In this document: one piece after another, positions 25,625-33,462 of the stretch
How positions within the stretch are numbered: position 1 is the stretch's first letter
Layout of the letters: every line of letters begins with the position of its first letter
NCBI RefSeq assembly: GCF_000310185.1
Contig: NZ_AMXD01000028.1
Coordinates: forward strand, 1 to 33,462
DNA from: Thauera aminoaromatica S2
Lineage (GTDB): Bacteria; Pseudomonadota; Gammaproteobacteria; Burkholderiales; Rhodocyclaceae
DNA: 33,462 nt
Direction of reading: 5' to 3'
Position numbers and translations under genes: made by a program
The notes under the pieces: generated by a model
The model's input: only the letters and a program-made list of their open reading frames with translations
Database searches by the model: none
Told to the model about the DNA's origin: nothing

Positions 25625-27325
25625 TCAGCTCGCGGCGAGCAGCGGATCGGACACCCCGAGGACGTAGATCGCGATCATCGCCACCGTGCCGGTCATCAGC
25701 ACGTAGTACACCGTCGGCCAGAAGGTCTTGCGCAGGATCGCGCCCTCGCGGCCGAGCAGACCCACCGTGGCCGAGGCCGCCACGACGTTGTGGATCGCCA
25801 CCATGTTGCCGGCGGCCGCACCGATCGCCTGCACCGCCACGACCATCGCCGTGGAGATGCCGAGCGAGGTCGCCACGCCGAACTGGAACTGGCTCAGCAT
25901 CATGTTGCTGACCGTGTTCGAGCCGGCGATGAAGGCACCGAGCGCGCCCACCGACGGTGCCAGCAGCGGATACACGTTGCCCACGCTGTCGGCCACCCAC
26001 TTCGCCATCGCGATCGGCATGCTGGGCAGGTCGGCGGCGTTCACCCCCGAGTTGATCAGGATGCGCACCATCGGCACGGTGAACAGCAGCACGAAGCCGG
26101 CGCCGAGCAGCACGCGCGAGGACTCGCCCACCGCCTTCACCAGCGAGCGCGCGTGCATGCCATGCAGGAACACGGTGATCAGCACCACCGCCACCAGGAT
26201 GCCGCCGGGCAGGTAGAGCGGCTGGAAGTCCGCCTTGATGCCCTTCTCGCCGAGGATGTCGGCGAACACGATCACCACCGACTTCATCGCCCCGCCGATC
26301 TCGGGGAACACGCGGCTCAGCACGAGCAGCGCGCCCACCAGCACATAGGGCAGCCAGGCGCGGAAGATGCTGATCGGCTGGTGACGCGGGAGCTGATCGA
26401 GCTTCATCTCGACGCTGCCCATCCACTCGCTCGGCCACTCCTTCGGGTCGGCAAAGTCCCAGGTCTTCTTCGGCACCAGGAAACCGAAACGCGCCGCGGT
26501 GGTGACGAGGGCCAGGCCGACCAGGCCGCCGAGCAGCGAGGGGAACTCAGGCCCCAGGAAGACGCCGGTGAAGGCGTACGGGACGGTGAAGGCCAGACCC
26601 GCGAAGATCGCGAAGGGCAGCACCTCGAAGCCAGCCTTCCAGCTCTTCTCGCGGCCGAAGAAGCGCGTCAGCATCATGACCATGATCAGCGGAATGACGG
26701 TGCCGACCATGGCATGGATGATCGCCACGTTGCTGGTGATCACCTGCAGGAAGACGTCCCAGCTCGAGCCCCTGGCGGCGAGCTGCGCGCCGATCGTCGC
26801 ACTGTCGAGGCCGCTATTGACGCCGATGATGATCGGCGTGCCCACGGCACCGAAGGACACCGGCGTGCTCTGCACCAGCATGCCGAGCAGCACCGCCGCC
26901 AGCGCCGGGAAGCCGATCGCCACCAGCAGCGGCGCGGCGATCGCCGCCGGCGTGCCGAAGCCCGAGGCGCCCTCGATGAAGCAGCCGAACAGCCAGCCGA
27001 TGATGATCGCCTGGATGCGGCGGTCGGGGCTAATCTTGGCGAAGCCCGCGCGGATCGCGGTGATCCCGCCCGAGTACTTCAGGGTGTTGAGCAGCAGGAT
27101 GGCGCCGAAGATGATCCACAGCACCCCGATCGTGATCACCAGCCCCTGCAGGGTCGAGGCGAGCACGCGGTTCAGGCTCATCTCCCACACATACAGGCCG
27201 ATGCCCGCAGTGAGGAAATAGACGACCGGCATCGCGCGCTTGGCGGGCCAGCGCAGGCCCACCAGCAGCACCGCGGCGAGCAGGATCGGAGAAAAGGCGA
27301 GGAATGCGAGCGTACCAGGCTGCAT
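25625..27325 (-). CDS. lldP: L-lactate permease
   Basis: 566 aa, a polytopic inner-membrane protein with many hydrophobic helices from residue 5 to the C-terminus. Family segments seen are [25 protein letters not shown] (starting at about residue 109), [15 protein letters not shown], and the late [20 protein letters not shown] with [20 protein letters not shown]. LldP imports L-lactate, and often D-lactate and glycolate, with protons. GGGGGAG lies 7 nt before the ATG. It is first in the lactate cluster, preceded by a small leader ORF and the candidate operator at 27449-27481. Confidence 0.96.
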
Positions 27326-27338
27326 CGGAATCTCCCCC

Positions 27339-27392
27339 TCAGGCCGGCGCGCGCATCACGCGCGCAGCCTTGAACATCGAACCAACCGTCAT
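27339..27392 (-). CDS. 17-codon leader ORF upstream of lldP
   Basis: ATG at 27392 to TGA at 27339 encodes [17 protein letters not shown]. It is preceded by a purine-rich GAGAGGGGAAGGGG and ends 13 nt before the lldP ATG, with the lldP ribosome-binding site between. It is basic and amphipathic, with no membrane segment. It may be a leader peptide coupling translation into lldP or a small protein; I recognise no family. Evidence is position and ribosome-binding site only. Confidence 0.45.
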
Positions 27393-27448
27393 TGCCCCTT
27401 CCCCTCTCGAATGCATTTCATGAAATCAGGATGTCGTGCACTTCCACT

Positions 27449-27481
27449 TTCTGGCTAAGTGGTCTTACCACTTAGCCAGAA
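27449..27481. promoter_or_regulatory. Perfect inverted repeat, candidate FadR/LldR-type GntR operator
   Basis: Two perfect 15-bp arms, TTCTGGCTAAGTGGT and ACCACTTAGCCAGAA, flank the 3-nt centre CTT. The core TGGTCTTACCA fits TNGTNNNACNA, the operator consensus of the FadR subfamily of GntR regulators that includes lactate-responsive LldR. It lies about 57 bp upstream of the leader ORF of lldP. The same sequence could form a long hairpin in RNA. Confidence 0.7.
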
Positions 27482-27654
27482 GTTGCACCAGACTAAGGGA
27501 GCCCGGAAGGCGTGTCAATGGAAATCATCAGATTTATCGATGCAAACATGAGAGCCCAATCCAACGGCCATGCGGGGCCTTTTCGGCGCGCTCCGCTCCA
27601 TGCGCCGCAGGGGCCGCGCCCTCATCGCGCGCGCGCTCGTTACTGGCGCGCGCA

Positions 27655-28125
27655 CCACCGGGGAGAAATCGGCGGTCCCCAGTGCATGGTTGCGCACGCG
27701 GAATCGACGGTCGTTGGTGGGCTGCCCGGCGGTGACGTAGTCATCGGGCAGGAAACAGGTCGACGTAGCCTCCCATCGGCAAGGCAGCTGCCTGCAGTTC
27801 TCGGCTCCGTCAGCCACTCCCAGAGATGGCACGCCCGCCGGATGTGCGCGCCGTTGGGCGCCGCGTTCAACCTGGCCAGCAAGTCCTCCGGCGTGAGGCG
27901 CTCGAACAGGGCGTCGATGACCTCAAGATTCACGCCTTCATGGCGCAGGGCAAACTCGCGGTGCCCGACAAGCGTGCCCTCGATGGCAACGCCGCAAGGA
28001 AGAAGCACGCGGTCGGCCGAGTCCACAGGCCGATTGACCGAACCGCTGATCTGCGCCGGCTTCGCCAGCGGTCGGACGACCAGACAGAGTCGGCTGATGA
28101 GTTGTGCGTAGCCAATCGTCGACAT
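27655..28125 (-). pseudogene. Fic-family protein, N-terminal remnant with frameshifts
   Basis: From the ATG at 28125 the frame reads IGYAQLISRL, then GHREFALRHEGVNLEVIDAL and HIRRACHLWEWLTEP (about residue 107), which I recognise as the N-terminal domain found before Fic domains in some Fic/DOC proteins. Near 27770 the frame breaks: YVDLFP is legible in one shifted frame and PDDYVTAGQPTNDRRFRVRN in another, so at least two indels are present. Similarity stops after FSPVVR near 27655, so the catalytic Fic motif is missing. The remains cannot make an active AMP-transferase. Confidence 0.65.
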
Positions 28126-28145
28126 CCCATTGCGGCCGGTACCCG

Positions 28146-28358
28146 TCCGCCAAAAGCATCGACTAACGCCGTGTAGTACCACAGCGATCCACCCTTCCCT
28201 CCGCTGAAGCGCGCCCAAACGGACTCACCGATTTCAGTCAGATCAAACAGGATCGCCTGCAGGTTGGCCAGCTTGTCGCACGCAGAGACGAGAATGCCCT
28301 CGCCTTCCGCCACACGCAGGTGAGCGAGGTACCGCTCCTTCCGCTCGCGCCAGGAGCT
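28146..28358 (-). pseudogene. HD-domain (RelA/SpoT hydrolase-like) remnant
   Basis: About 70 codons read SWRERKERYLAHL, then ILVSACDKLANLQAILFDL and VWARFSGGKGGSLWYYTAL. This is the C-terminal half of small HD-domain proteins of the ppGpp-hydrolase type. The N-terminal HD motif that should precede it is absent: upstream sequence runs into unrelated hairpin-rich DNA. The tail ends just before the Fic remnant. It is therefore a truncated fragment. Whether HD and Fic genes once formed one operon is unknown. Confidence 0.6.
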
Positions 28359-28412
28359 TTTGCGCCGCTGCGCATCGGGCAGGCCGCATGAGCACTCCGT
28401 GCTGGATGTAGT

Positions 28413-28511
28413 GCGGTGACTGTAATGCGCGACAGGCTCAGGAAGTGAGCCTGTCTTTCGCACAGCACGGCCAGCCGTGGTCCATGACGGTTCGAACCCG
28501 TTCACCTGCCA
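28413..28511 (+). ncRNA. Candidate structured RNA with tRNA-like T-arm next to rtcB
   Basis: A canonical T-arm is seen at 28486-28502: GACGG, loop TTCGAAC, CCGTT. Possible closing stem: GCGGTG (28413-28418) with CACC-T-GC (28503-28509, one bulged T). Between them are CTGT/ACAG (28420-28423 / 28432-28435), GCTCA/TGAGC (28436-28440 / 28446-28450), CTGT-CTTTCGC-ACAG (28451-28465), whose 7-nt loop resembles a tRNA-Glu anticodon loop, and CACGG-CCAG-CCGTG (28466-28479). A competing fold is a perfect 10-bp hairpin at 28431-28455. There is one arm too many for a normal tRNA, and no correctly placed CCA. It may be a Y-RNA-like or tRNA-derived RNA, or a decayed tRNA/attachment site. It ends 13 nt from the rtcB stop, on the opposite strand. 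Confidence 0.3.
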
Positions 28512-28524
28512 TCTGTTGCGCCCC

Positions 28525-29721
28525 CTACCCTTTCACGCACACCACCTGCTTCAGCGTGTGCAGCACCTCGGTCAGGTCCGACTGGTTGGCCATCACGGTG
28601 TCGATGTCCTTGTACGCGCCGGGGATCTCGTCCACCACGCCCTTGTCCTTGCGGCAGATCACGCCCTCGGTCTGGCGCGCAAGGTCAGCCTCGGTGAAGT
28701 GCTTGGTGGCCGCCGTGCGGCTCATACGCCGGCCAGCGCCGTGCGCACTGGAACAGAAGCTCTCCGCGTTCCCCCTGCCGCGCACGATGTAGCTGCGCGC
28801 GCCCATGCTGCCGGGGACGATGCCGAGCTCGCCCTCCCCCGCGCGGATCGCGCCCTTTCTGGTCACCCACACGTCGGCGCCGAAGTGGTGCTCGCGGGCG
28901 ACGTAGTTGTGGTGGCAGTTCACCGCCTCGGTAGTCACGGTAAAGGGCGGCAGGTGGCGCGCCAGCCCTGCGAGCACGAGCTCGAGCATCGCCTGGCGGT
29001 TGGCCATCGCATAGTCCTGCGCCCAGTGCACCGCCTCGACGTAGTCGTCGAAATGCGGGCTGCCCTCGCGGAAGTAGGCCAGGTCGCGGTCGGGCAAGTG
29101 GATCATGTGCCGTTCCATGTCCTTCCTGGCGAGCTCGATGAAGTAGGTCGCGATCGCGTTGCCGATGCCCCGGCTGCCCGAGTGCAGCATCACCCACACC
29201 CGGCGCTTCTCATCCAGGCAGACCTCGATGAAGTGGTTGCCACCGCCGAGCGTGCCCATCTGGTTGGCCCACTTGGAGAACCTGCCGAAGGCCTTGAGCA
29301 GCTGCGGGTGACGATCGGTCAGGGCCTTGAGGCCGGGCTCGAAGGGGCGCACCGCATCGACGAGCACGCGACCGTCGGCATGCTGGTCACGGCCGACGGG
29401 CACGTCGCGCGTGATCTGATCGAACACCTTCTTCAGCCGCTTCTCGTCGATGTCATTCGCCGTGAGCGACAGGCGCGCCGCGACCATGCCACAGCCGATG
29501 TCGACGCCCACCGCCGCCGGGATGATCGCCTGGTGGGTGGCGATCACCGAGCCGATGGTCGCGCCGATGCCCAGATGCACGTCGGGCATGGCGGCGACGT
29601 GGTGGTGGATGAAGGGCAGGCTGGCGAGGTTGGCGAGCTGCGCCTTCGAGCCCTCGTCGATGTCGTCGGTCCAGATCCTGACCGGCACGGTGCTGCCGTT
29701 CAGGACGGTCTTCACAGGCAT
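28525..29721 (-). CDS. rtcB: RNA-splicing ligase RtcB
   Basis: 398 aa. RtcB joins RNA 2',3'-cyclic phosphate or 3'-phosphate ends to 5'-OH ends using GTP and Mn(II), in RNA repair. Motifs seen: the metal-binding VDIGCGM (D74, C77), GGGNHFIE (159-166), LHSGSRGIGN, and the guanylylated His H327 in SSAHGAGR. Length and motifs match the E. coli-type enzyme. A strong AGGAGG sits 6 nt before the ATG, 27 nt after the stop of the VIT-vWA gene, so the two are surely cotranscribed. No rtcA, RtcR-type sigma-54 activator, archease or prfH is seen nearby; the operon regulator appears to be MerR-type. Confidence 0.97.
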   Translation of the reverse strand: MPVKTVLNGSTVPVRIWTDDIDEGSKAQLANLASLPFIHHHVAAMPDVHLGIGATIGSVIATHQAIIPAAVGVDIGCGMVAARLSLTANDIDEKRLKKVFDQITRDVPVGRDQHADGRVLVDAVRPFEPGLKALTDRHPQLLKAFGRFSKWANQMGTLGGGNHFIEVCLDEKRRVWVMLHSGSRGIGNAIATYFIELARKDMERHMIHLPDRDLAYFREGSPHFDDYVEAVHWAQDYAMANRQAMLELVLAGLARHLPPFTVTTEAVNCHHNYVAREHHFGADVWVTRKGAIRAGEGELGIVPGSMGARSYIVRGRGNAESFCSSAHGAGRRMSRTAATKHFTEADLARQTEGVICRKDKGVVDEIPGAYKDIDTVMANQSDLTEVLHTLKQVVCVKG

Positions 29722-29748
29722 GGCTGCCTCCTCGTGGCTCCCCTAGTG

Positions 29749-32274
29749 CTATTCAACGCCGACACCCGACCGTTCGAGCGCCGAGGCCGCGTCCCGGAGC
29801 GCAAAGACGCAGTCGGGCCAGGTTTCCGCCTGGAGCGTGCTGACGAACACCTGCAGGCGCGCCGCGAGCGACTCAGACGCCACCTCAACCTGTCGGGCCT
29901 CAGGCGCAGCGGCCGGCCTCACCCGCTGCGTCAGGGCCTTGAGCCGTCCGAGCATGCCGTTGGTCGAGCGCAGCGCGTCATGCAATTCGCGCTGAGCCAT
30001 CGCCTCGACGAAGCAGGCCACAACCTGCGCCTCGTCCTCCCCGTCGGCCAGGACGAACTCCAGCCAGTCGAGCACCGCCGTACCGACACCGATCCTGTGC
30101 AGCGCCGCATACGTGCGCGGCCATTCGGCCTGCGTATGACTGCGCAGCCAGTGGGTCAGGCCCAGCGGTGTGAGGCCGCTGTAATGAGGCTCGGCAGACC
30201 AGTAACGCGGATTGTCGCGCGGCGGCTCATCGGCTGCCCGGTCAGCGCCGCGTCGCAGGAATGCCGGGATATCGTAGGTGGAGGCCTGTGTTCGCCTTTC
30301 GCTGCGCAGCACGCGCGCACCCGAGCGCATCACGGCCGGCGCATCGAGCGCGTTCATGTCAAACGACCCGAAGCCCGCCGCTGCCGGCGCGCCATACGCG
30401 GTGGGCGTGTCATTCACCGTGAGCGGCGCCATGTTGGGCTCGATGTAAAGCAGATCGACGCTTCCCAGCCCGCCAAAGCCTGCAGGCAGCATCGCGGGGA
30501 CCTTCACGAGATCGGGCATGTCCTCGGGCTTGTCGGCTTCGGCACGCGCCTCGACCAGCAGGAAGTGCGTCAGCGGACTGACCAGTTGATACGCGACGGC
30601 CAGCGCGAGCGCCTCCGGTGCCCGGAGTGACTGCGCCCCTTCGCCGGCGAGGAGCTGCTCGACCTGCGCGGCCACCGCCATGCGGCCCAGCACGGCATGC
30701 GGCTCGACGGCACTGAGCGATGCCTCACCCAGCGCTACGGGCGCGTCCCCCTGTGCCATCCGGCCGACCAGACGCACCGGCTGATCCGGCACCCACCCAT
30801 GCGGCACCTGCGCAAAGCGCGCCCACACCGTGACTGCGTCGCCATCGAAGACCGAGCCGGGCAGCGGGCTCATCCACACCGGCTCGGCACCCGTCGGCCA
30901 CACCAGTTGCAGGGCGTCCATGCGCTGCGAGCGCAAACGCGCGAACATGCGCAGCACCGCCGGCTCCACGGCCTCGCCGGGCGCGACGAAGTCGCAGGCG
31001 CCGCCCGTCTCGTCAGCCAGCCGCCGCAGCACACCCTCGGCCGGCGCGCTGCCAATGCCGACCACGAAGATCCGATTCCCCAGCGCTCGCGCCCGTTTCA
31101 CCGTGCGATCGATGGCGTGGATCTGGCCGTCGGTGATCAACAGTAGATCGACCGCTGCGGCCCCCTCCTCCGTCCCAGGGCTCGGCTCGGCATCTCCGGC
31201 CAGGGCCAGCGTGGATGCCAGCGCGTTCTCCATCTCGGTGCCACCGAGATCGGCCTGCAACTGCATCGCCCAGCGCTGTCCCGCCTGGCGGGTGGCGGCG
31301 CTGGTGCGCCACAAGGCACGCGAGCGATGCTCGACCGTGCTGCCAAAGCGTGACAGCGAGAAGCGCTCGCCCTCGCGCAGGCCGGCGATGATGGCCTGCA
31401 GCGCACGGCGCGCAGCGGCAATGCTGTCGCCCTGCATCGAGCCGGAGCAATCCACGAGGATCTTGACCGCGAGCGGATGGGCCGCTGCCGGCACACGCGG
31501 GCAGAAGCTCGCCAGCACATTCACCGCGCCCTCATCGAGGGTGTCTTGCGCGCACACGGCAAGCGAATCCTGCGCAACCTCGTCGAGCACCAGGATGAAG
31601 TCGCGATCGAGTGCCCCGCCGCGACCGAGCGATACGAGCATCGCCGCCGTCTCCCCCTCTCCTTCGAGCCGCATCGACAACGGATGACTCGGCGAGCCGA
31701 TGCGCGCCCGCGCGAGCTCGCCTTCGATGCGCAAGGTGAGCTCAAGCGGATGGACCGCCATCAGGTCGTGCTCGACCACCTGATGCGGCTTCAGGCCGGC
31801 ATCGGCCACCGAATCGCCGTAGCGCGGGGCGATCACCGTGGGCACCACCAGGCGCAGGCCATGCTGCTCGAACTGCAGCACCTGGGCGTAACGCAGCCGC
31901 AGCACACAGGTTTCTCCGCGTGCGAGGTTGCCCAGGTTCAGCGTGTAGCTGCCATCGAAGTTCTGCTCGAGCAGGATGGCGGTGTTGCCCTCGGCCAGCG
32001 CGTCCTCGTAGCCCTGCTCGGCCTGCTTCTTCTCGATGACCGCTCCGGACAGGCAGCGCTCGCCAATCCGCACCTCCACCCCGAGGAGCACCGCCGCCCA
32101 CGGCAGCGGGAAGCTGTAGACGAGCTCGACATGGCGCTCGAAGGGGTTGGCAAAGCGCTGCTCGAGCTCCGCTTCGAAGAGCGTGCCGCGCAAGGTGCCG
32201 GTGAACCGCACGCCCTGCAGCGTCAGTGCCTCACCCGCGCGCGTCTCAAGTCGTGCCGATTGTTGCTGCATCAT
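29749..32274 (-). CDS. VIT and vWA domain protein
   Basis: 841 aa. N-terminal VIT domain (about 5-135, FANPFERHVELVYSFPLP and YTLNLGNLARGETCVLRLRY), then a vWA domain (about 265-440) with a complete metal site: D275-S277-S279 in LVDCSGSM, T346 in LGGTEMEN and D382 in LITDGQ. The rest (about 440-841) is a long region without recognised domain, ending in helical sequence. No signal peptide or membrane segment is seen, so it is probably cytosolic, unlike secreted VIT-vWA proteins. Eukaryotic relatives include inter-alpha-trypsin inhibitor heavy chains and vault PARP. The start ATGATG overlaps the regulator stop (ATGA at 32274-32271) and has GGGAG upstream. Its coupling to rtcB suggests a scaffold or RNA-protein assembly role in RNA repair (inference). 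Confidence 0.88.
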   Translation of the reverse strand: MMQQQSARLETRAGEALTLQGVRFTGTLRGTLFEAELEQRFANPFERHVELVYSFPLPWAAVLLGVEVRIGERCLSGAVIEKKQAEQGYEDALAEGNTAILLEQNFDGSYTLNLGNLARGETCVLRLRYAQVLQFEQHGLRLVVPTVIAPRYGDSVADAGLKPHQVVEHDLMAVHPLELTLRIEGELARARIGSPSHPLSMRLEGEGETAAMLVSLGRGGALDRDFILVLDEVAQDSLAVCAQDTLDEGAVNVLASFCPRVPAAAHPLAVKILVDCSGSMQGDSIAAARRALQAIIAGLREGERFSLSRFGSTVEHRSRALWRTSAATRQAGQRWAMQLQADLGGTEMENALASTLALAGDAEPSPGTEEGAAAVDLLLITDGQIHAIDRTVKRARALGNRIFVVGIGSAPAEGVLRRLADETGGACDFVAPGEAVEPAVLRMFARLRSQRMDALQLVWPTGAEPVWMSPLPGSVFDGDAVTVWARFAQVPHGWVPDQPVRLVGRMAQGDAPVALGEASLSAVEPHAVLGRMAVAAQVEQLLAGEGAQSLRAPEALALAVAYQLVSPLTHFLLVEARAEADKPEDMPDLVKVPAMLPAGFGGLGSVDLLYIEPNMAPLTVNDTPTAYGAPAAAGFGSFDMNALDAPAVMRSGARVLRSERRTQASTYDIPAFLRRGADRAADEPPRDNPRYWSAEPHYSGLTPLGLTHWLRSHTQAEWPRTYAALHRIGVGTAVLDWLEFVLADGEDEAQVVACFVEAMAQRELHDALRSTNGMLGRLKALTQRVRPAAAPEARQVEVASESLAARLQVFVSTLQAETWPDCVFALRDAASALERSGVGVE

Positions 32275-32750
32275 GGTTCTCCCGCCTGTCGGTCGTTCTT
32301 GTCCGTGTTGTGCGCGGCAGCGCCCTGCGACGCTGCCCCGCCTTGCCCCTGCACCGCCTCGAAGGCGGCCATCACGCCCTGGATGAACTGGCGCACCGCC
32401 TCGGGACTCAGGCCCGCGCGCTGGGCATCGATCACCACCTCGACCCCCTCGGCCACCGTCAGATGGCTGCACACCGACACGCTGCCGATGGCGCGCTCAC
32501 GCGGCGGCACCGGCGGCGGCGCACCGTGGAGCAGCTCGCGGATACGCTCGAGCGAGACGCCGGCAGCGGTCCATTTGCGGATCTGCAGCAGCTGCTCGAG
32601 ATGCCGCGTGCCGTAGCGGGCCGCCCGGGTCTCGCCCTCGGGTCGGTCGACCAGGCCGATCTGCACGTAGTAGCGCACCGTGCGCGGCGGCAGGTCCGCG
32701 AGCACGGCCAGTTCGGCCAGCGGGTAGCTTGGGGAGGTTTCGGAGTTCAT
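32271..32750 (-). CDS. MerR-family transcriptional regulator
   Basis: 159 aa. The N-terminal MerR winged helix (about 8-75) reads LAELAVLADLPPRTVRYYVQ (8-27) and GTRHLEQLLQIRKWTAAGVS, followed by a central helical region and a low-complexity Gln/Ala/Gly tail. The family binds spaced promoters and activates on an effector. Here the effector is unknown: the only Cys residues do not form a metal site. It overlaps the VIT-vWA gene by 4 nt and is first in the rtcB operon, so it probably controls its own operon. No strong ribosome-binding site precedes the ATG at 32750. Confidence 0.85.
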   Translation of the reverse strand: MNSETSPSYPLAELAVLADLPPRTVRYYVQIGLVDRPEGETRAARYGTRHLEQLLQIRKWTAAGVSLERIRELLHGAPPPVPPRERAIGSVSVCSHLTVAEGVEVVIDAQRAGLSPEAVRQFIQGVMAAFEAVQGQGGAASQGAAAHNTDKNDRQAGEP

Positions 32751-32772
32751 GACACAGATTAAGCCACCTTTA

Positions 32773-32807
32773 TTTATACAGTGAAACTGTCGTTTGATAC
32801 TGACAGT
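32773..32807. promoter_or_regulatory. Shared control region of the MerR-rtcB operon and the divergent gene
   Basis: On the minus strand TATAAA (32778-32773) is a good -10 for the MerR gene. Overlapping it upstream are ACAGT-GAA-ACTGT (32778-32790), and ACTGTC (32786-32791) with GACAGT (32802-32807) around a 10-nt spacer. On the plus strand TTGATA (32794-32799) and TAGCAT (32815-32820) could serve the divergent gene. The inverted repeats over the -10 are plausible binding sites for the regulator. No clear -35 is seen for the minus promoter, as in many MerR-controlled promoters. Confidence 0.45.
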
Positions 32808-32855
32808 GGACTGATAGCATCGGGGTGTCTCTTCACCGCACCCCGCCGAATCGCC

Positions 32856-33221
32856 ATGCCTACTCCACCCCGCGCCACTCCGCCCGCAGACAGCAAGGGA
32901 ACGCGCGCCGCGCTGATCTTCGCGCTGACGGCCGAGCGCCTGTCGATCTACTACGAGCATGGCCAGTGGCTGACCGAAGCGCAGGGCGCGAGCTTCATCG
33001 CCGACTGGCTGCGTCGCAGCGAGCGCACGCTGCCGCTGGCCGACCGCCGCCAGCTCTCCGCGCTCAGCGACGGGCTGGCGCGCCAGATCGCCGGCTCGCT
33101 GTCACGGGAGGCAGGGCTCTATACGGCTCACGAGATGATGGAGGCGCTTGATCCGAACTACGACTCGGACCTGGCGCGCTCGATGATGGACGAGTGCGCA
33201 CGCCTGCTGGACACCAACTGA
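32856..33221 (+). CDS. Hypothetical protein divergent from the MerR-rtcB operon
   Basis: 121 aa with no family that I recognise. After a Pro/Thr-rich N-terminus it looks wholly alpha-helical (ALIFALTAERLSIYYEHGQW, SFIADWLRRSERTLPLADRR) and is acidic at the C-terminus. No signal peptide, membrane segment or metal motif is seen. The ATG at 32856 is chosen over one 25 codons earlier, because the earlier one lies inside the operator-like repeats. Codon usage is like that of neighbouring genes. It shares the control region with the regulator and may be part of the same system. Confidence 0.6.
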   Translation: MPTPPRATPPADSKGTRAALIFALTAERLSIYYEHGQWLTEAQGASFIADWLRRSERTLPLADRRQLSALSDGLARQIAGSLSREAGLYTAHEMMEALDPNYDSDLARSMMDECARLLDTN

Positions 33222-33389
33222 TACGGGACGTTAACTGATACTCGACGGGACAAGCCGATCAGTCGCTCACCCTTCCGCGCCGGGCCTTGATCGACGCCCG
33301 CCGCGCCTTGCCCTCCAGCCTGCGTATGAAGAGCTGAAACCGTCTTCAGCCAAGCTGTGGCGATCGTACGTGCTCGGCGAGCTGCCCAG

Positions 33390-33435
33390 CGTCAATTACC
33401 TTGGCCGGTCGACGTCAATTATCCTGGCCGGTGGA
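33390..33435. mobile_element. Two 23-bp tandem direct repeats resembling an IS21-type terminus
   Basis: 33390-33412 and 33413-33435 are 23-bp direct repeats with 20 identical positions, both containing CGTCAATTA and TGGCCGGT. Multiple direct repeats of this kind with GTCAATTA...TGGCCGG occur at the ends of IS21-family elements, as transposase-binding sites. No transposase gene is in the window, so either an element begins beyond 33462 or this is a remnant. Between 33222 and 33389 I see no supported gene. Confidence 0.5.
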
Positions 33436-33462
33436 AGCGAGGCATGAGGGGTTCAGCCTTTC

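Follow-up and report, generated by a model that had tools for sequence, protein, structure and literature searches.

An FtsZ-like C-terminal tail within a VIT-vWA protein encoded between a MerR-family regulator and RtcB in Thauera aminoaromatica S2

In Escherichia coli the C-terminal tail of the division protein FtsZ, DYLDIPAFLRKQAD, binds FtsA, ZipA, MinC, ZapD, ClpX and SlmA, that is at least six proteins which read the same tail, and residues I374 and L378 are critical for several of these partners (PMC4117426). In another described system, the Rtc operon with Ro60 (rsr), Y RNA and the regulator RtcR, RtcB and a vWA-bearing protein lie in one neighbourhood (PMC7790460). Here we describe a locus of Thauera aminoaromatica S2 that touches both systems. 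The stretch of DNA analysed, referred to as the window, makes up contig C28 (33,462 b) in a genome of 317 contigs, and its closest named relatives are Thauera and Azoarcus. It carries an operon for a MerR-family regulator, a VIT-vWA protein and RtcB, and the VIT-vWA protein includes a segment resembling the tail of FtsZ:

32271..32750, minus strand: MerR-family regulator of 159 amino acids, first gene in the operon
29749..32274, minus strand: VIT-vWA protein of 841 amino acids, with VIT at residues 20-129, vWA at about 270-427, a linker and a C-terminal region
30241..30369, minus strand: FtsZ C-terminal-tail copy, VIT-vWA residues 636-678, ending ...NALDAPAVMRSGARVLRSERRTQASTYDIPAFLRRGAD; the genome's own FtsZ ends ...TNLDVPAVMRSGRRTTVEAMSTSGVGTYDIPAFLRRQAD
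30253..30273, minus strand: core DIPAFLR of the FtsZ-tail copy, residues 668-674
28525..29721, minus strand: RtcB of the 3'-5' RNA ligase family, 398 amino acids, third gene, probably accessory

Searched with the 841-residue protein, the own genome gave a single further match at E<=0.001, a 65-codon stretch of contig C46 (E 2.9e-8, 52%) that is the end of FtsZ and closes YDIPAFLRRQAD. The open reading frame (ORF) following this ftsZ is presumably lpxC, and the gene order in E. coli is ftsZ-lpxC. Residues 636-678 of the VIT-vWA protein share 57% identity with the FtsZ tail over 43 residues, with a local alignment score of 108 that none of 500 shuffles attained, and at the DNA level the alignment scored 38 against a maximum of 19 in 200 shuffles. 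The copy and the own FtsZ have in common the DIPAFLR core, an upstream D-x-P-x-V-M-R element and linker letters, so that the VIT-vWA protein contains a D-[IVL]-P-x-F-[LM]-[RK] core in FtsZ-like context; the residues matching I374 and L378 are both retained. Two relatives, L050 (120) and L211 (114), outscore the window protein against the window genome's FtsZ tail, and in several members similarity to FtsZ extends far beyond the core on its upstream side. No signal peptide was seen by eye in the VIT-vWA protein, which we take as cytosolic.

The three-gene array was described in the first-pass annotation of this DNA, and its coordinates, overlap, gap and Pfam families are all confirmed: on the minus strand the MerR and VIT-vWA genes overlap by 4 nt, a 27-nt gap precedes rtcB, and Pfam identifies MerR_1 (7.1e-16), VIT followed by VWA_3 (4.9e-23 and 7.2e-16) and RtcB (PF01139, 7.8e-132). 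The top NCBIfam model of the regulator by score is HspR, at a score under that model's cut-off. The metal site of the vWA domain had been called intact, and the motif DCSGS...T...TDG is indeed there, mostly invariant among 10 aligned relatives; the C-terminal region after the linker has no family match. An intact RtcB active site had been claimed as well. The third gene product is a full-length domain with metal and nucleotide residues by Pfam and structure-sequence alignment, and it aligns to solved RtcB structures (1uc2, 2epg) across DIGCG, GNHF, H-GSRG and SSAHGAG, a subset of which we take to be catalytic.

The pair formed by the first two genes is widely spread. A MerR gene adjoins the VIT-vWA gene in at least 16 families, all of one class (the own family, 11 others in the order sample, three in the class sample and one in the phylum sample), and such pairs are also found on Massilia and Aquabacterium plasmids. 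Within the genus, 12 of 29 genomes carry a MerR-type VIT-vWA protein, a 13th match (G193) being without MerR. The VIT-vWA query matched 41 of 199 genomes of the family sample at E<=1e-20, where the weaker matches with fetched loci are without MerR, and 30 of 399 genomes of the order sample at E<=1e-80; for 20 of these 30, the own genome counted, the flank fetched contains a MerR match. At E<=1e-100 two of the 339 genomes in the phylum sample were matched, the own genome and one of the same class. The MerR-VIT pair is conserved whereas RtcB varies, and on the best reading of these comparisons the functional core would be a module of two genes, one for a MerR-type regulator and one for a VIT-vWA protein that is translated together with the regulator.

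The FtsZ-like core recurs among these pairs. A strict pattern, [DE][IVLM]Px[FYLIM][LMFI][RKHN] after residue 470, was present in 13 of 31 MerR-linked clusters and absent from all 16 clusters without MerR (shuffle expectation 0.106 and 0.015, respectively; Fisher p 0.0015), and leaving out the window's own cluster gave 12 of 30 (p 0.0022). A tight form of the motif had 12 matches in 1534 background ORFs, of which 10 were VIT-vWA fragments missed by the filter and two were FtsZ. The core is retained in 13 of 14 members of the window's 60% cluster, the remaining one, L212, being a fragment with its tail unscored, and it occurs in 12 further clusters at differing positions. In L042, on a Massilia plasmid, and in L054 it stands at the very end of the protein, as it does in FtsZ. 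The motif label requires 11 changes, at least seven of them forced, on a tree of 40 VIT-vWA rows, so the motif has been repeatedly gained and lost.

The linkage of rtcB to this module is recurrent and optional. The first-pass annotation suggested a survey for VIT-vWA genes next to rtcB in other genera, and the adjacency does recur: intact rtcB lies beside the VIT-vWA gene in seven of 29 genus genomes (seven of the 12 MerR-type carriers), and also in Azoarcus sp. G091 and in G056, which belongs to a third genus. An eighth place in the genus, a second one in G916, has rtcB with an internal stop, G169 and G919 have only rtcB pieces there, and next to the VIT-vWA gene of G926, G914 and G915 there is no full-length rtcB, G915 having one on another contig. 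Conversely, rtcB stands without VIT-vWA alongside in G912, G913, G908 and G915. In G912 a 147-nt gap before rtcB retains the first MerR codons and the last VIT-vWA codons, and G913 retains an apparent VIT-vWA end; these leftovers indicate that the MerR-VIT pair was deleted. On a tree of 57 RtcBs the VIT-linked label needs two changes, forced by well-supported branches, with one origin in Thauera/Azoarcus and a second in G056. The RtcB nearest to that of G056 is from G017, where an ArfB-like gene and orf146 precede it in place of a VIT-vWA gene. Both associations are co-directional, with 26 to 48 nt between the genes.

In 29 distinct MerR-VIT loci with flanks, a set outside the later genus set in which L042 and L108 were counted once and several contigs end nearby, two have intact rtcB alongside and one has fragments. 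Among 19 other MerR-VIT carriers from the order sample, an RtcB was matched at E<=1e-60 in three (G306, G445 and G474), each time on another contig. RtcB is somewhat commoner in MerR-VIT carriers of the family sample (6 of 11 versus 49 of 188 others, p 0.049), three of the six being the linked ones; the order sample shows no such excess (2 of 15 versus 83 of 383, p 0.75). Two separate associations argue against pure chance, and the separate losses of VIT-vWA and rtcB argue against an obligate machine. An obligate partnership of VIT-vWA and RtcB is ruled out by the unlinked carriers and the separate losses in the genus, and a tight VIT-vWA/RtcB machine is not supported, given rtcB at two of 29 loci and the loss of each part alone within the genus. 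RtcB is best read as an accessory gene that would have been added at least twice to MerR-VIT modules.

A tRNA-like RNA had also been proposed beside rtcB, on account of a canonical T-arm in a segment abutting that gene. The features at this end are:

28386..28524, no strand assigned: spacer with GACAGGCTCA hairpin and T-arm string; not a tRNA
28151..28385, minus strand: truncated remnant; its G919 counterpart overlaps the 3' part of an HD-domain match adjoining a Fic gene
27650..28170, minus strand: remnant of a Fic-family gene in three pieces

The string is present at 28486-28502 on the plus strand, opposite to rtcB. A single occurrence in the window is compatible with chance, since 100 shuffles held 0.31 such strings on average and at most 4. 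ARAGORN found no tRNA in the whole window, Rfam gave no match in the window at gathering, and across 27000-33462 at E<=5 the sole Rfam match was unrelated and sub-threshold. Folding z-scores of the segment were unremarkable on the two strands (-1.76 and -1.46), and the own genome holds no second copy at E<=0.1. When 28150-28530 was searched as DNA against the 29 genus genomes, the matches split at 28385/28386. Four relatives match the left part at 84-88%; in G919 the match shares a contig with the rtcB pieces, and in the other three it lies far from any reported rtcB match. The remnant 28151..28385 itself has no Pfam match. The right part was matched in G912 (90% over 145 nt), where it separates rtcB from an ADP-ribosylglycohydrolase gene, the domain being confirmed on the L033 homologue of that gene, and the window has probably lost its own ADP-ribosylglycohydrolase gene through deletion. 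G912 is the sole relative keeping the spacer, and read by eye from the alignment three of five T-stem pairs form in it, so that the check for covariation, one part of the second refutation named in the first-pass annotation, yields none. The sequence downstream of rtcB differs in L003, L033, L036 and L039. The locus thus has neither a covariance-model match nor a conserved stem of a tRNA or Y RNA. Since no tRNA or Rfam model matches, the T-arm is at chance level and the T-stem is broken in G912, we conclude that no tRNA-like RNA lies beside rtcB. That candidate is ruled out by ARAGORN, Rfam at two thresholds, shuffles, folds and the genus-wide DNA search; of the original observation the string stands, in a spacer, and the RNA does not.

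Judging from the sequence comparisons, we propose, with evenly divided confidence, that the MerR-controlled VIT-vWA protein engages the readers of the FtsZ tail, with RtcB as an accessory, and that division is thereby delayed or redirected under stress or phage attack. Triggering of MerR would lead to synthesis of the VIT-vWA protein, whose FtsZ-like tail would dock on the usual tail readers (FtsA, ZipA, MinC, ZapD, SlmA or ClpX) and whose body would hold a second partner. Competition or recruitment at the divisome would then have a delay of division as its simplest result, and delayed or redirected cell division during stress or phage attack would be the likeliest outcome. No RNA partner would be required. 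Because the Thauera islands also carry genes for a ribosome-rescue-like factor, ADP-ribosylglycohydrolase, HD and Fic proteins, induction of RNA repair could there go along with that of division control. The broader idea that the MerR-controlled VIT-vWA family repeatedly took the FtsZ tail as a decoy or docking tag, serving in Thauera as a stress- or phage-triggered division checkpoint co-induced with RNA repair, we regard as tentative and rather doubtful. The co-induction of SulA with DNA repair in the SOS response offers an analogy for such a checkpoint.

A number of observations weigh against a role in division. The motif is internal and not terminal in most carriers, 18 of the 31 MerR-linked clusters are without the strict motif (two of the 18 fit a looser pattern), and the rtcB-linked module of G056 is without it as well. 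The strict pattern was composed after the first matches were known, and 19 background matches to it include seven elsewhere in 500,299 residues. In the control clusters less sequence follows residue 470, a difference in length for which the shuffles allow, and L081, which has the motif and no nearby MerR scored, was counted on the MerR side via its near-twin L082. The motif label is not significantly clustered on the VIT-vWA tree (86 of 500 shuffles as low), and its frequent gain and loss fits turnover as well as function. The FtsZ sequences compared were those of the own genome and E. coli alone, and the structure model of the VIT-vWA protein (mean predicted local distance difference test score, pLDDT, 36; 8 close rows) was too poor and was left unused. 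Finally, large neighbours matching PADLOC at E<=1e-15 were found at four of 10 MerR-VIT loci (L090, L088, L095 and L106) and at one of 10 rtcB-only loci, a contrast that is not significant (p 0.15) in small, hand-chosen sets (10 of 18 and 10 of 17 candidates).

The chief alternative is that the FtsZ-like tail plays no part in division and serves as a degradation tag, through which ClpXP would keep the lifetime of the VIT-vWA protein short. The C-terminus of FtsZ appears in a list of ClpX degrons (PMC8138137), and the terminal motif of L042 and L054 agrees with such a tag, but in most carriers the motif is internal and in several members the similarity continues well upstream of the core; we consider this explanation unlikely. 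It is more improbable still that the segment is a functionless relic of chance 3'-end capture, as its patchy distribution with at least seven changes on the tree could be taken to mean, for the core is kept throughout nearly all of the window's cluster (13 of 14) and is present at differing positions in 12 others.

As to the operon, the MerR-VIT-vWA pair and RtcB could be unrelated island cargo that share a promoter by chance insertion. The content of the islands is variable, with many losses and remnants, two small ORFs replace MerR-VIT in G908, and some neighbours elsewhere match known defence genes; the two separate co-directional associations with their 26- to 48-nt spacing, and the somewhat higher frequency of RtcB in family-sample carriers, which includes the three linked cases, speak against it, and on balance we find such a coincidence possible and not very probable. 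The first-pass annotation raised a possible RNA-repair module, in which the VIT-vWA protein would hold or present damaged RNA to RtcB with the help of a tRNA-like RNA, as may be the case for Ro60 and Y RNA. Co-directional, closely spaced genes in seven of 29 genus genomes and two further genera, the two associations on the RtcB tree, and the occurrence in G198 of a further vWA protein, Ro60, next to an RtcB of this clade are in keeping with this idea. It nevertheless appears highly improbable in view of the absence of an RNA by ARAGORN, Rfam, shuffles, folds and the G912 comparison, the rarity of intact rtcB beside flanked MerR-VIT loci (just two of 29), the single losses of its parts in the genus and the lack of a TROVE domain in the VIT-vWA protein by Pfam. 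The holding of damaged RNA has no positive evidence at the locus, and the FtsZ-tail copy points elsewhere.

The remaining features of the locus lie upstream of the regulator:

32778..32790, no strand assigned: inverted repeat ACAGT-GAA-ACTGT in the orf146/MerR intergenic region, upstream of merR
32781..33221, plus strand: orf146, a divergent small gene with no family match
33262..33324, minus strand: C-terminal fragment of a gene for an ArfB-like protein (RF-1 domain); several relatives have the gene intact

The repeat is perfect in the window, forms a 17-bp palindrome in two of four aligned intact relatives and is imperfect in the other two, and we infer that it is a candidate MerR operator. 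Neither orf146 nor its G017 homologue matched a family (Pfam and NCBIfam for orf146). Recurring neighbours in the Thauera islands are genes for a DnaQ-like exonuclease, an ArfB-like RF-1 domain protein, orf146, HNH, ADP-ribosylglycohydrolase, HD and Fic proteins. Elsewhere the same RtcB clade is accompanied by Ro60 (G198), NUDIX (G031), HD_4 (G031 and G082) and a broken ADP-ribosylglycohydrolase gene (G164). In G198, another genome of the family (L179:3057-6415), the gene with TROVE and vWA_Ro60 domains adjoins rtcB, with tRNA genes just upstream. The ArfB-like gene, orf146 and rtcB are contiguous and co-directional in G017 (L177:4848-6872); in G912 (L243:6214-8419) both stand beside rtcB, with orf146 divergent and a split ArfB match. 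These genes may form a module for ribosome rescue and RNA ligation, comparable to PrfH-RtcB2. An ADP-ribosylglycohydrolase gene lies downstream of or near this rtcB clade in L201, L243, L033, L096 and L171 (broken in L171). The two small ORFs of G908 (L245:2924-3733), between orf146 and rtcB, read to us as a ParD/ParE-like toxin-antitoxin pair, and NUDIX, rtcB and HD_4 genes stand in a row as a candidate rtcB operon at L173:3335-7096 and L174:3806-7056, NUDIX being assigned by a Pfam match in G031 and by likeness in G082.

The counts of defence-like neighbours hint, in a small sample, that MerR-VIT pairs may sit in defence islands. Earlier neighbour picks matched PADLOC as HmaA (L114), ZorA1 (L115) and a type II methyltransferase (L260), and L088 has a SIR2 gene shortly downstream with no PADLOC model match. 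The VIT-vWA protein and RtcB themselves gave no PADLOC match at E<=0.001, and MerR matched mad1 weakly (9.3e-6). L260, a contig of IMG/VR, carries a MerR-VIT pair in which the FtsZ-tail motif is present, and the methyltransferase gene lies about 1.6 kb away. Nine neighbouring or member proteins were compared with PHROGs and none matched a structural phage family; a phage origin of the L260 pair was for that reason rejected, and the viral status of the contig is doubtful.

The FtsZ-tail copy in a VIT-vWA protein and the MerR/VIT-vWA/RtcB operon both appear to be new, being unreported among the matches listed in a mostly open-access literature. If the proposed docking is true, a family other than FtsZ that carries the FtsZ tail would be well placed to act as a competitor or as an adaptor at the centre of bacterial division. 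The copy gives a test for bacterial VIT-vWA proteins annotated by domain alone, for example on plasmids, and is a ready peptide probe of tail readers in betaproteobacteria. The locus also illustrates that an RtcB neighbourhood can resemble an RNA-repair module though RtcB is optional cargo.

Compared with the Rtc/Ro60 operon, the window operon has MerR instead of RtcR, a VIT-vWA instead of a TROVE-vWA protein, and no Y RNA or tRNA-like RNA by ARAGORN and Rfam; no RtcA was among the neighbours identified, RtcA itself not having been searched for. The likeness to Ro60 operons originally put forward therefore holds for a vWA protein and a ligase, and for Ro60 beside the same RtcB clade in G198, and fails for the RNA. 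As in the RtcB2-PrfH ribosome-repair pair (PMC9223846 and PMC1586002), an RF-1-domain ArfB-like gene adjoins RtcB in G017 and several Thauera islands; however, the ArfB-like protein has 134 amino acids and is not PrfH by our own reading, and the window has a fragment alone. The window RtcB scores 172 bits with the NCBIfam model PRK09588 ('RNA ligase RtcB family'), far under its cut-off of 407. Sortase-target VIT-vWA proteins (TIGR03788) have the same VIT-vWA architecture, but the window protein reaches 233.2 bits against a cut-off of 551.65 and differs by its MerR partner, longer C-terminal region and FtsZ-tail motif. Human PARP4 is the best sequence match among solved structures (aligned residues 6-429, E 2.1e-17), from which the window protein differs in having no ADP-ribosyltransferase domain by Pfam. 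From FtsZ itself the VIT-vWA protein is set apart by the absence of an FtsZ domain match in Pfam and by a motif that is usually internal; with the FtsZ tail peptide it shares the core, the upstream element and the linker letters, and binding to the partners of that tail is predicted.

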